Source of the DNA: Sandaracinaceae bacterium
GTDB taxonomy: Bacteria; Myxococcota_A; Polyangia; Polyangiales; Sandaracinaceae
Direction of reading: 5' to 3'
Length of the DNA: 64,000 bases
Assembly: GCA_040218145.1 (NCBI GenBank)
Contig: JAVJQK010000094.1
Span: 1-64,000, forward strand
Position numbers and translations under genes: made by a program
Part shown: piece after piece, positions 1-26,592 of the stretch
Numbering within the stretch: position 1 is the first letter of the stretch
Layout of the letters: the number at the start of each line of letters is the position of its first letter
The notes under the pieces: model-generated
Seen by the model: the letters and a program-made list of their open reading frames with translations, nothing else
Databases searched by the model: none
What the model was told of the DNA's origin: nothing

Positions 1-140
1 ATGCATCGCCGAGCGCGACGGCGTGTCCAGCGCGCCGGGCCGACGACGAAATGCTGAAGCATTTCGGAGGAGCGACTGGCGCGCTGGGCGCGCTGTCCCG
101 CCGGCGAGGCGCGCGCAGTCATCTTTGCCGGACACTGCTA
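1..140 (-). repeat. Palindromic intergenic element, copy 1 (cut by window edge)
   Basis: This is a non-coding stretch read best on the minus strand. It contains the perfect palindrome GAAATGCTGAAGCATTTC at 48-65, flanked by GCTCCTC on one side and GTCGTCGG on the other. The same core and flanks recur at 24754-24772 and 26123-26141. On the minus strand the element begins with TAG at 140-138, which is also the stop codon of the DUF4230 gene. The far end lies outside the window, so pairing of the outer arms cannot be tested here. Confidence 0.65.
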
Positions 141-851
141 GTCCTCGATCTCACGGAACTGCACCGTGACCGAGTCGAAGCCGAGCGAGCGGATCAGGGT
201 CTCGACCGTGCGGGCGGCGTTGCGCTCGGCGCGCGCGATGATCCCCCCGTCGATGGCCGCCTGCTCGAGCGTGCGCTCCGCCTCGCGGCGCGCGCGGGTC
301 TCGAGGCTCTCGCGGCGTCGGGCCAGCAGATCGGTCTCCCGCGTGTGCACGTAGGTGCGCTCGTTGTCGAGCCGGGCGCTGAAGATCTCGACCGGCGGCA
401 GCGTGATCGTGGCGTTGCGCCCCGTCGCGTCGATCACCACGTCCGTGTCGCGCAGCTGGCTCAGGTCCACCCCGGCCACCACGTCGGCCGCGGCGACGAG
501 CAGGATCGAGTCCTCCGCCTCGACGAGCCCGAACACGCGCCGCTGGCGGCTCTCGAGGTCGATGACGCGCTCGACGTGATAGGAGGCGCTCTCGAGCCGG
601 GCCAGATCGCGCACGGCCACGATGACGTTCGGGGTGGGGCGGACCTCGATCACCTCGGCCGGGGGCGGCTCGTCGGGGGAGAGCGCCATCGCGACCCAGC
701 GCACCAGGACGCCCCCGAGGCAGCCGCCCACGAGCACGAGCAGCCCGATGGCGCCGTAGCGCAGGGCGGGGCCCGTGACGCGCGACGGGCTGGGCTCCGC
801 GTGCTCCGCGTCTCGCGCGTCGTCTTCGGCGCTCGTCTCGTCTTCGCTCAT
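138..851 (-). CDS. DUF4230 domain membrane protein
   Basis: This 237-residue protein has an acidic cytoplasmic N-terminus, one membrane segment at about residues 32-57, and an extracytoplasmic region matching the DUF4230 pattern. That pattern is a VIVAVRDLARLES start, a beta-rich middle and a C-terminal helix rich in Arg/Glu ending near LIRSLGF. The family has no established biochemical function. The ATG was chosen because it overlaps the stop of the upstream lipoprotein gene (ATGA, 848-851), which implies translational coupling. Its TAG stop coincides with the end of a repeated palindromic element. The family assignment is by eye. Confidence 0.8.
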   Translation of the reverse strand: MSEDETSAEDDARDAEHAEPSPSRVTGPALRYGAIGLLVLVGGCLGGVLVRWVAMALSPDEPPPAEVIEVRPTPNVIVAVRDLARLESASYHVERVIDLESRQRRVFGLVEAEDSILLVAAADVVAGVDLSQLRDTDVVIDATGRNATITLPPVEIFSARLDNERTYVHTRETDLLARRRESLETRARREAERTLEQAAIDGGIIARAERNAARTVETLIRSLGFDSVTVQFREIED

Positions 852-10551: not shown

Positions 10552-10625
10552 GGACGGTCGGGAATGGGTTCGCGCGGCTCGGGATCCCGACGTGCGCGGC
10601 ACGATGAACGATCTCGTCCTCAACG

Positions 10626-11400
10626 GCGCGCGGTCGTGTCGGGACGCGGGAGCGAGCGAAGCGAAGCGCGCTGCCTCCACCCCGCCAGGGCGGCCAGCGA
10701 GCGCGTAGCGCGAGCGCGAGCCGGCCAACGGCGTGGGTTGCTGTCGTGTCGGAGGAGCGAGCGAAGCGAAGCGCGCAGTCTCCATCGCGCCATGGCGGCC
10801 AGCGAGCGAGGGCGTAGCGCCAGCGTAGCCGGCCGACGGCGTGGGTTGCTGTCGTGTCGGGGGAGCGAGCGAAGCGAAGCGCGCAGTCTCCATCGCGCCA
10901 TGGCGGCCAGCGAGCGAGGGCGTAGCGCCAACGAAGCCGTCCGACGGCGTGGGTTGCTGTCGTGTCGGGGGAGCGAGCGAAGCGAAGCGTGCAGCCTCCA
11001 CCCCGCCAGGGCGGCCAGCGAGCGAGGGCGTAGCGCGAACGAGAGCCGTCCGACGGCGTGGGTTGCTGTCGTATCGGGGGAGCGAGCGAAGCGAAGCGCG
11101 CAGCCTCCAGCCCGCCAGGGCGGCCAGCGAGCGAGGGCGTAGGGCGAACGAAAGCCGGCCGACGGCGTGGGTTGCTGTCGTGTCGGGGGAGCGAGCGAAG
11201 CGAAGCGCGTTGTCTCCCTCGCGCCAGGCAGCGAGGGAGGCGCGTTGCGAGCGATGGCGTAGGGCGAACGAAAGCCGTCCGACGGCGTGGGTTGCTGTCG
11301 TATCGCGGGAGCGAGCAAAGCGAAGCGCGCTGCCTCCATCGCGCCAGGGCGGCCAGCGAGCGCGAAGCGCGAGCGCGAGCCGCGGGGGCCCCAGTGCCCC
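10626..11400. repeat. Tandem array of 108-120-bp non-coding units
   Basis: The motif GCGTGGGTTGCTGTCGT recurs at 10731, 10839, 10947, 11056, 11165 and 11285, preceded by a degenerate unit near 10626, giving about seven units of 108, 108, 109, 109 and 120 bp. Each unit carries a run of GAGCGAGCGAAGCGAAGCG and a small inverted repeat. The inverted repeat is CGCCATGGCG in some units and CCGCCAGGGCGG in others. The variable unit length and the absence of ribosome sites argue against coding, although GC richness leaves long open frames on both strands. It fills the gap after the MFS gene. Confidence 0.8.
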
Positions 11401-15253: not shown

Positions 15254-15297
15254 GCGAGCGCGCATTCCCCGCTTGCGGACGCCCCGCTTGCGGAGGA

Positions 15298-15402
15298 GGG
15301 GACGGTGTTCGGTTGTTAAGTTCTGGTATGCAAACCGTGCATACCCGCAGGTGGAGGTGCGCAAAAAGTCCGTCCACAAGTTTACAACCGAACACCGTCC
15401 CC
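15298..15402. repeat. 105-bp inverted-repeat element (REP/MITE-like)
   Basis: The left arm GGGGACGGTGTTCGGTTGT (15298-15316) is exactly matched by its complement at 15384-15402, giving 19 bp perfect with partial continuation inward. Inside is a second hairpin GGTATGC/GCATACC (15325-15345, 7-nt loop) and a weaker GTGGA/TCCAC (15351-15377). The element is visibly less GC-rich than its surroundings. GGGGAC-type termini of this style occur in repeats mobilised by REP-associated tyrosine transposases; that attribution is inference. It ends 57 bp upstream of ttcA, so it may form part of its leader. Confidence 0.7.
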
Positions 15403-15459
15403 TGGTCCTCGTTCGGCGACGGGGGGCGCGTCGGGGTCTCCTCGGCTACGTTCGAGCGG

Positions 15460-23193: not shown

Positions 23194-24684
23194 ATGGCGT
23201 TCGCGGAGTACGACGCATACGACGGGCTGGGGCTGGCCGAGCTCGTGCGGGAGGGCGAGGTCACCGCGAGCGAGCTGCTCGAGGAGGCCATCGCGCGGGC
23301 GACCCGGCTCAACCCGCGGCTCAACGCGATCGTGCTCGAGATGTACGCCATCGCGCGCGAGCGGGTGAAGTCGCCGCTGCCCGATGGGCCGTTCCGCGGG
23401 GTGCCGTTCCTGCTCAAGGACCTGCACGCGGCGTATCCGGGCGTGCCGTGTCAGGCCGGCAGCCGGCTCTATCGCGGCTACCTGCCCGAGGCGCCCGCGG
23501 AGCTGGTGCGGCGCTACCTCGAGGCGGGCGTGGTGATCTTCGGGCGCACCAACACGCCCGAGCTCGGCATCGTGCCGACCACCGAGCCGGAGCTCTACGG
23601 GCCCACGCACAACCCGTGGCGTCACGGGGTCTCGCCCGGAGGCTCGAGCGGGGGCTCCGCGGCGGCGGTGGCGGCGGGCATCGTGCCCATGGCGCACGGC
23701 GGCGACGGCGGCGGCTCGATCCGGATCCCCGCGAGCTGCTGCGGGCTGTATGGTCTCAAGCCGTCTCGACTGCGGACGCCGCCCGGGCCGGAGGACTCCG
23801 AGGTCTTCTACGGGTTCGCGGTGGAGCACGTGCTCACCCGGAGCGTGCGCGACAGCGCGGCGATGCTCGACGCGACGGCGGGGCCCGAGCCGCACGGCAT
23901 CTACTTCCCTCCGCCCGGCGGGAGCTTCCTGCGCGCGCTCGACCGCCCGCTCGAGACGCTGCGCGTCGCCTACACCGCCGACCCGATCCTGCCCGGCGAG
24001 CCGAACGTGGACGCGACGCGCGCGGTCGAGGCGGCGGCGAGCCTCTGCGAGTCGCTCGGGCACCAGGTGGACATCGCGAGCCCGCGGATCGACGCGCTCG
24101 GCTTCGCGCGGGCGTTCTTCTATCACTTCGCGGCCGGCGTCGCGTCGGAGCTGACGGCGGCCGAGGCGTTCCTGCGGCGGCCCGCGGGCCCGAGCGACTG
24201 CGAGCGGACCACGTGGCTGCTCGCGCTGGCCGGACGCTCCATCGACGCGGGCGCGTTCACGACGATGCGGCGGAAGCTCCACGCGGAGTCGCGCAAGATC
24301 GTCGCGTTCTTCGACGACTACGACGTGCTGATCACGCCGACCACGGGCCGGCCGCCCATGAAGCACGGCGAGCTGGATCCGGTCGGCTTCGAGGCGCAGC
24401 TGCACGACCTGATGGGCGCGCTCGGCACGCCCGCGCTGTTGAAGATCCCCGGCCTCGTCGACCGCGCCGCCTCCCGCGCCTACGCGTTCGCGCCGTACTC
24501 GCCGCTCTTCAACGTGACCGGGCAGCCGTCGGCGAGCGTGCCCGTGCACTGGAGCGACGACGGCCTGCCGATGGGCGCGATGATCACCGCGCGCCCCGGC
24601 GCGGACGCGCTCGTCTTGCAGCTCTCGGCGCAGCTCGAGCAAGCCGCGCCCTGGTTCGACCGGCGGCCCCCGACCCGCGCTTAG
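23194..24684 (+). CDS. Amidase (amidase signature family)
   Basis: This 496-residue enzyme has the Ser-cisSer-Lys triad: Lys in FLLKDL (about 75), the Gly/Ser-rich loop [16 protein letters not shown] (about 148-163) and the nucleophile region [13 protein letters not shown] (about 169-181). It resembles 6-aminohexanoate-cyclic-dimer hydrolase-like amidases rather than GatA, and no gatB or gatC lies nearby. It hydrolyses an amide of unknown identity, probably in the cytoplasm. Its TAG stop is the first triplet of a palindromic repeated element. Confidence 0.9.
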
Positions 24685-24846
24685 CAGTCCGTTGAAGAAC
24701 CTCGCTCCTCGTCTCTCGGGCGGGACGACCCGTCTCTCGGCCCGTGTCTCCTCGAAAATGCTGAAGCATTTCCTCGTCGCCCAGAACCGAGAACCGGGCC
24801 GTCGCGCTCCGAGATCCTTCGGGCTCGGTACTTCAACGGCCTGCTA
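24682..24846 (+). repeat. Palindromic intergenic element, copy 2
   Basis: The outer arms TAGCAGTCCGTTGAAGAACC (24682) and the complement of TAGCAGGCCGTTGAAGTACC (ending 24846) pair with two mismatches. The centre has GAAAATGCTGAAGCATTTC (24754-24772) flanked by CTCCTC and CTCGTCG, as in copies 1 and 3. The outer arms differ between copies while remaining self-complementary within each copy. The first TAG is the stop codon of the amidase gene. Confidence 0.75.
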
Positions 24847-24905
24847 GCTAGTCGGGCCTCGCCGCCGTCTGGCGCATTTTGCTCCGCTTCGGGTAGGCTG
24901 CGCAC

Positions 24906-26056: not shown

Positions 26057-26057
26057 G

Positions 26058-26214
26058 TAGAGCACATCTCAAACCCCTCCCGTCGCCTGGCCGGCGGGAC
26101 GGGCCGCGGCCGGTCGCTCCTCGAAAATACTCCGGCATTTCCTCGTCGCGCCCAACCACGGCTGGGACCCGTCGCGCTCGGCCACGCTCGGTCCGAGTCT
26201 CGAGATGTGCTCTA
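26058..26214 (+). repeat. Palindromic intergenic element, copy 3
   Basis: The outer arms TAGAGCACATCTC (26058-26070) and GAGATGTGCTCTA (26202-26214) are perfectly complementary over 13 bp. The core GAAAATACTCCGGCATTTC (26123-26141) and its flanks GTCGCTCCTC and CTCGTCGC match the other copies. The arm sequence differs from copies 1 and 2. Its right-hand end supplies the TAG stop (26212-26214) of the minus-strand membrane-protein gene. Confidence 0.75.
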
Positions 26215-26592
26215 ACTGACGCGCGGCTTGATCGACGACTCGAAGCAGCGGATCGAGTCGTCGTCCGCCCAGCACACCCAGTAGGCGTACATCGCGTAGA
26301 CGGTGCCGACCGGGAAGCTCATCAGCTGGGTGCTGGCGAGCCAGGTCTGCGCGGCGCGCCCGCGCCCGCTGCCGACCAGGTAGCCGACGACGACGTGCGC
26401 GGCGCCGAGGCCGCCGATGAGCAGGAAGGCCAGGACGCCGACCAGCATGAACACGAGGCCGGGCGTCTCGCCGTCCTGCCAGCCGAGCCAGCCGCCGAAG
26501 ACGAACATCACCAGGAAGAGCAGGCCGAAGACGAACGTGTAGGCGCCGAGCGCGAAGTTCGCCCACTTCAGGCGGCGGAGGTGCGGGGTCAT
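26212..26592 (-). CDS. Small multi-pass membrane protein
   Basis: This 126-residue protein has about three membrane segments (near 12-35, 45-68 and 85-108) and a cytoplasmic or periplasmic C-terminus. No family was recognised. It is the gene downstream of the dioxygenase at 26603, with a gap of ten bases, so the two are probably co-transcribed. Its TAG stop lies in the terminal arm of the palindromic element. Confidence 0.72.
   Translation of the reverse strand: MTPHLRRLKWANFALGAYTFVFGLLFLVMFVFGGWLGWQDGETPGLVFMLVGVLAFLLIGGLGAAHVVVGYLVGSGRGRAAQTWLASTQLMSFPVGTVYAMYAYWVCWADDDSIRCFESSIKPRVS

Follow-up and report, generated by a model that had tools for sequence, protein, structure and literature searches.

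MITEPsy1 of Pseudomonas syringae is a 100-nt miniature inverted-repeat transposable element (MITE) with 18-nt terminal inverted repeats. According to the part of the published account drawn on here, insertion takes place after CTAG or YTAA and brings about a duplication, its movement was caught by an insertion trap, and its ends, GGAAGGTCTGAAAAAGCC, were related by its authors to ISPsy2 (PMC3189936). It is a precedent for both the CTAG target and the size class of the elements described below, although its ends differ, and the same portion of text describes no counterpart to the core with exchangeable arms that is a feature of the present family (PMC3189936). The Correia repeat enclosed elements of Neisseria are mostly 104-108 or 153-157 bp in length, and effects of RNase III and IHF have been described for them (PMC2649163). 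In the sections of that paper used here they resemble the present family in having inverted repeats around a conserved core, variants of the ends, differences between strains and an RNA hairpin, but their target is TA rather than CTAG. REPINs and GTAG REPs are likewise extragenic hairpin-forming repeats that are thought to be mobilised in trans; as far as the consulted excerpts go (PMC3116915, PMC3733652), the present family differs from them in having a target duplication at a clean site.

Here we describe a family of elements of about 165 bp in the genome of a Sandaracinaceae bacterium. We think it likely that these are CTAG-targeting miniature inverted-repeat (foldback) transposable elements that are mobilised in trans. 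No description of the family was found in the literature searched, most subscription journals lying outside its coverage. What is new is the occurrence of a single core with several sets of arms, together with strong covariation.

Three copies within the window

The window, by which we mean the whole 64,000-nucleotide stretch of DNA that was analysed, contains three copies of the element. All are found where a sequence-only reading had placed them, with a common core and with arms that are self-complementary within each copy.

1..141, minus strand: copy 1, subfamily B1, incomplete, truncated by the contig start (locus L051)
138-141: terminal CTAG of copy 1, the TAG within it being the stop codon of the DUF4230 gene
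138-851, minus strand: gene whose TAG stop sits exactly in the end of copy 1
23194-24684, plus strand: gene whose TAG stop sits exactly in the left end of copy 2
24681..24847, plus strand: copy 2, subfamily A, complete, TTAG-CAGTCCGTTGAAG ... CTTCAACGGCCTG-CTAG
24682-24684: left TAG of copy 2, which is the stop codon of the amidase gene
24749..24779, plus strand: conserved core of copy 2 at the hairpin apex, a core-pattern match (locus L025)
26057..26214, plus strand: copy 3, subfamily C, complete, GTAG-AGCACATCTC ... GAGATGTGCT-CTA, the right CTA being the TAG stop of the minus-strand gene that follows
26118..26148, plus strand: conserved core of copy 3 at the hairpin apex, a core-pattern match (locus L026)
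26212-26592, minus strand: gene whose TAG stop sits exactly in the right end of copy 3

Genes were called from codon usage, giving 53 genes in the window and 86% coding sequence. The genes next to the copies had been named as DUF4230, amidase and small membrane protein. Pfam agrees for the first two (138-851, DUF4230; 23194-24684, Amidase) and finds no domain in the third (26212-26592). It had also been proposed that the TAG of each copy is the stop of the adjacent gene. This is true of one end of every copy, but copies 2 and 3, which are complete, each have an opposite end that is no stop. In copy 3 the left TAG comes one base past a TGA, and the right end of copy 2 (CTAG) has a gene start opposite it, not a stop. 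Taken as a whole, the observation of the repeat is partly confirmed.

Distribution of the family

A first core pattern gave 100 matches in the 11-Mb host genome, allowing up to three mismatches, with none for the reversed pattern used as a control; a second core type gave 82, again with no control matches. The union of the two lists is 105 places, and the existence of further copies in the genome is thereby established. Many of these places are half-copies within about 80 bases of contig ends, the assembly having broken within the repeat, and a pair of the 105 may therefore derive from a single copy. The loci that were retrieved exclude the copy at C134:14177. Complete copies measure 158-169 bp after trimming of two over-long extractions, which is too short to hold a transposase gene, and their terminal inverted repeats are conserved in each subfamily. 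An Rfam search of 10 loci gave seven matches up to an E value of 5, none of them near the gathering score (the best having 27.7 bits against a gathering score of 142).

When the core was sought in 56 genomes including that of the host, matches were found in two, the host and a member of another genus of the same family (G002), which has four places. A scan of a contig collection returned 22 records, of which 21 belong to MED-G138 (Sandaracinaceae) and one to a Polyangia MAG, the latter being the G002 contig itself. Matched pieces of at least 400 bases are 94.9-99.7% identical between MED-G138 and the host loci, with the exception of two pieces at 83-84% within one locus. Judging by its sequence, we take MED-G138 to be a second strain of the host species.

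A common core within different arms

The copies fall into subfamilies, distinguished by their ends.

Subfamily A: start CTAGCAGTCCGTTGAAG...
Subfamily B1: start CTAGCAGTGTCCGGCAAAG...
Subfamily B2: start CTAGCAGCGCGCGGCGAAAATG...
Subfamily C: start CTAGAGCGCATCTC...
Subfamily D (L047): start CTAGCAGGGTGAAGAAG...
E, and another B type: both in G002
F (L089): a single divergent copy

The arms had been thought to vary copy by copy. Instead copies are near-identical within a subfamily, while between subfamilies the apex core is common and the arms are different; the arms looked copy-specific because the window has one copy of each of three subfamilies. Replacement of the arms about a common apex is the least expected feature of the family. 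It is seen most directly in element E of G002, which has C-type arms around a B-type core. Its arms are identical to those of C_L014 in 48 of 55 columns and to those of B1_L041 in 21 of 56, and for the core the corresponding figures are 57 of 89 and 80 of 88. This is an apparent symmetric exchange of arms. A different junction occurs in L059, where a B1 left half is joined to a B2 right half.

Folding and compensatory pairing

The whole element folds as one long hairpin with the core at its apex. Calculated energies are -82.6 kcal/mol for copy A of the window (z -6.2) and -81.2 kcal/mol for copy C (z -5.1), with none of 200 shuffles as good in either case, and -115.4 kcal/mol for a B1 copy (z -9.4).

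Covariation was analysed in an alignment of 15 of the 26 extracted elements; a 27th, L091, was left out by the extraction, and L061 and L109 were trimmed. RNAalifold returned 31 pairs for the 15 elements, 22 of which are altered on both sides in one sequence or more. Addition of the apex hairpin by hand gave a 39-pair structure in which 92.3% of cells pair, a percentage biased in favour of the structure, which was derived from the same alignment. Changes on both sides occur in 24 of the 39 pairs, compared with 18.3 in shuffles, none of which reached 24, and the number of cells with such a change is 104 against 35. Versions of the structure slid along the alignment have at most 21 pairs changed on both sides. 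The count of further standard pair types, 38, was attained in 40 of 500 shuffles; no shuffle equalled the other four measures of pairing. The variation of the arms is strongly compensatory, and of the earlier suggestion of a structure-dependent element the conservation of structure between the subfamilies is supported.

The pairing of the outermost helix could be explained by matching ends alone, because a transposase must read both ends. The interior helix 4 is not explained in this way; here 11 of 18 pairs have changed on both sides, and 95.6% of cells are paired.

Palindromes can be corrected by template switching or by conversion between their arms. Complementarity might then have been kept by a mutational process and not by selection for the fold, and a minority lineage of subfamily A with matched CAGCCC/GGGCTG ends (two of 21 complete copies, the common form being mismatched) is consistent with that. 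Yet in 15 of the same 21 copies the mismatch of CAGTCC with GGCCTG stands uncorrected, and unpaired stretches are conserved between subfamilies as well, so that on balance we find such a process somewhat unlikely. A bolder reading, which we hold to be less likely than not, is that the hairpin core is a portable, structure-selected module whose transposase ends have changed more than once, both arms being exchanged together.

Occupied and empty sites

The two strains were compared by searching with the joined flanks of an element in the other strain. Among 21 sites of the host genome, 13 are occupied in MED-G138 (including L007, L041 and L055), five are not occupied (L020, L032, L059, L091 and L104), two gave no result (L014 and L069) and one has a repeat as its flank (L095). 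The sites of copies 2 and 3 of the window are occupied there (L166 and L155, respectively). Six MED-G138 sites, which were chosen for having no match among the host loci retrieved and are not a random sample, proved to be occupied in the host genome in two cases, empty in three, and in one to carry other CTAG elements. Another MED-G138 copy, inside L121, is missing from the host locus L102. Occupied and empty sites in relatives had been put forward as a check on mobility, and presence does differ between the two strains at several sites.

The cleanest pair is the host sequence GGTCTAGTCTC (contig C37), compared with GGTCTAG-CAGTGTCC...GACCCTG-CTAGTCTC in MED-G138 (L134, L132), the MED-G138 halves lying on different contigs and being paired by flanks that are adjacent in the host genome. 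The single CTAG of the empty site becomes CTAG-element-CTAG when occupied, a clean duplication of the target. CTAG is found likewise at L059/L159, while at L091/L170 the empty site is TTAG and the occupied one has CTAG on both sides. Other comparisons are complicated by seven extra bases (L032/L153), by flanks that have diverged (L020/L174) or by unlike sequence on the right side (L104/L160), and the MED-G138 element L131 has CTCG as its site and a dissimilar left flank.

Identical 4-bp flanks are present in only 13 of the 34 complete copies of subfamilies A, B and D, comprising 12 of CTAG/CTAG and one of CCAA/CCAA (L020); the flanks of the remaining 21 differ. CTAG forms the left flank in 22 of the 34 copies and the right in 19, the others being one or two bases off. 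We read the unequal flanks as probable decay of CTAG, a disfavoured tetranucleotide. The 4-bp duplication is frequently decayed or imprecise.

At three places the two strains have different subfamilies by the same flank, B2 versus A at L117/L093, and B1 versus B2 at L121/L102 and L125/L048. This could result from tandem second insertion, replacement or mis-assembly, the MED-G138 contigs ending inside the element. From about position 1650 of L141 several different CTAG-bounded short repeats lie in a row at one CTAG, where MED-G138 has a B1 element.

CTAG and the stop codons of neighbouring genes

The tetranucleotide CTAG is rare, with eight occurrences in the window where 72.9 are expected. End patterns in the retrieved loci of the host genome define 114 element ends, of which 67 face a gene stop and 47 a gene start. 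Exact coincidence with a stop codon occurs at 25 of the 114 (22 TAG, two TAA and one TGA), equivalent to 25 of the 67 stop-facing ends, and one end lies inside a weakly supported gene call. The overlap is real, but it is not universal.

Nor is it particular to the element. Its terminal CTAGs are at stops in 16 of 84 cases (64 intergenic, four genic), compared with 11 of 72 for other CTAGs in the same sequence (53 intergenic, eight genic; Fisher p=0.67), this control set being imperfect in that it lies near elements and includes the ends of other repeats. The plain reading is that the CTAG target explains the stop overlap. Insertion at gene ends, as had been suggested, fits a by-product of the target.

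A bidirectional terminator or RNA-stability hairpin at gene ends, selected for that function and with mobility secondary, would also have covarying arms and very stable folds. Such a role accords further with the 67 of 114 ends facing a stop, above the expectation of 0.48, though the bias is weak (p=0.02 against the intergenic lengths of the window, p=0.07 against one half). Against it, the other 47 ends face gene starts, the hairpin terminates with CTGCTAG and lacks a T run of its own, strains of the same species differ in its presence, and stop overlap is not above that of other nearby CTAGs. We consider a terminator decidedly unlikely. In terms of insertion at CTAG, which we prefer, a transposase acting in trans would insert the element at CTAG or a near match, and the 4-bp duplication would place CTAG at each end. 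Insertions would often leave the stop of the neighbour in place because CTAG is rare in the genome and occurs mainly outside genes or at C+TAG stops.

Candidate transposases

The host genome was searched with one transposase protein and with three transposase families of Pfam, which yielded a single IS1380 (L115), a single IS200 transposase (L113) and, below its curated cut-off, a single RAYT-like gene (L114). Of 377 genomes in the phylum, eight, including the host, have the exact A end, with an estimate of about one chance match at most. PF01609 was then sought in nine genomes (seven of these eight, G002 and MED-G138). It gave 14 matches, and A-like ends are present in two of them, L213 (MED-G138) and L220 (G164).

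In L213 the transposase gene lies between CTAGCAGCCTGTTGA and CTAGCAGCCCGTTGACGAACC. The start of this protein is present at two different sites in the host genome (contigs C60 and C61), where it adjoins the left end of the element, CTAGCAGCCCGTTGATTTAC; the insertion sequence (IS) occurs in that genome as contig-edge pieces only. Its ends in the host species are CTAG-CAGCCYGTTGA, compared with CTAG-CAG(T/G/C)CCGTTGAAG in subfamily A, and in both strains they agree with the left end of A in 9 to 11 of 13 positions. The end of L220, from another family, is within one mismatch of that of A. Both transposases have Pfam DUF772 and DDE_Tnp_1 above cut-off, and IS1182 is the best of all NCBIfam models for each. 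We call them IS1182-like because their scores of 178.7 and 175.9 bits fall below the curated cut-off of 270. ISPsy36, an IS1182 element, has a reported target of GGCC in the part of its description used here (PMC8027508), which differs from the CTAG seen in this family. In both L213 and L220 the transposase frame closes with the TAG that is part of the terminal CTAG (L213:2266-2268 and L220:1267-1269), the target supplying the stop codon.

Given that both strains carry an IS whose ends resemble those of subfamily A, this subfamily is on sequence comparison most plausibly a MITE of the IS1182-like group, and its mobiliser would most likely be an IS1182-like transposase. Subfamily B has only CTAGCAG in common with the IS ends, and the transposases searched included none with ends of type B, C or D. 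Since their ends differ and yet match internally around the common core, B, C, D and the others probably use other transposases.

Other candidates were set aside. The ends of the IS1380 element L115 are CTAG, but its inverted repeats are not those of the family. RAYT and IS200 enzymes are disfavoured, as L114 has its own inverted repeats and neither the core nor the A, B or C ends occur at L113 or L114. Among viral contigs the A end had one match (L207); it is inside a reading frame, the 7-kb locus contains no second end, and the match was taken as chance.

REPIN-like elements would be moved single-stranded by a tyrosine transposase, of RAYT or IS200 type, that reads the hairpin and not specific ends. 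The folding of the entire element as one hairpin with the z scores given above, the presence of one gene of each of these two kinds in the host genome and the unequal flanks of 21 of 34 copies could all be accommodated in that way. The RAYT-like gene, however, is the only one found and is flanked by unrelated inverted repeats, GGGACGGTGTTTACTTGT; in the 34 copies both ends are CTAG or at most two bases off, in place of a GTAG or CGTC tag at one end; there is a 4-bp duplication at a clean empty site; and an IS of the DDE type with A-like ends exists. We regard movement of this kind as very unlikely. Mobilisation in trans by transposases that recognise the ends is what we infer, and a non-autonomous mobile element, one of the two possibilities raised earlier, is supported by the copy number, the terminal inverted repeats, the occupied and empty sites and the IS with similar ends. 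The earlier interpretation as a whole is partly supported.

Related and neighbouring repeats

G110, G331 and G154 contain elements, about 170 bases long or more, that combine the same end with another interior; one of them folds with z -12.8, so foldback elements built on the A-type end are not peculiar to the host species. G020, in which there are 47 matches to the A-type end, has elements of about 150 bp with this end (loci L181-L205), and there each end forms its own small hairpin.

Other repeats lie in the window or beside the elements. An inverted repeat at 15292-15408 of the window, with GGGGACGGTGTT arms, resembles the repeats flanking the RAYT-like gene L114, and may represent a distinct family of repeats belonging to that transposase. 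At 10583-11379 there are seven tandem repeat copies with a spacing of 105-120 bases. A repeat ending in GACCAAGTAGTC and followed by CTA or CCA adjoins several elements, forming the left flanks of L095, L056 and L108, and occurs also in MED-G138 (L158, L162, L165, L167-L169, L171, L173 and L175). The IS1380-family element (L115:1-1846) is bounded by CTAG, and short hairpin relatives of it adjoin the elements of L080 and L139.

Implications

A rare target that coding sequence avoids provides a simple reason why the end of a mobile element should be the stop codon of a gene. If the core is indeed a portable module, the fold has been kept through the exchange of arms, and one non-autonomous lineage could follow different transposases. 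With core and pairing kept while the ends that determine the transposase are replaced, the family offers a natural test of selection for the fold in bacterial MITEs.
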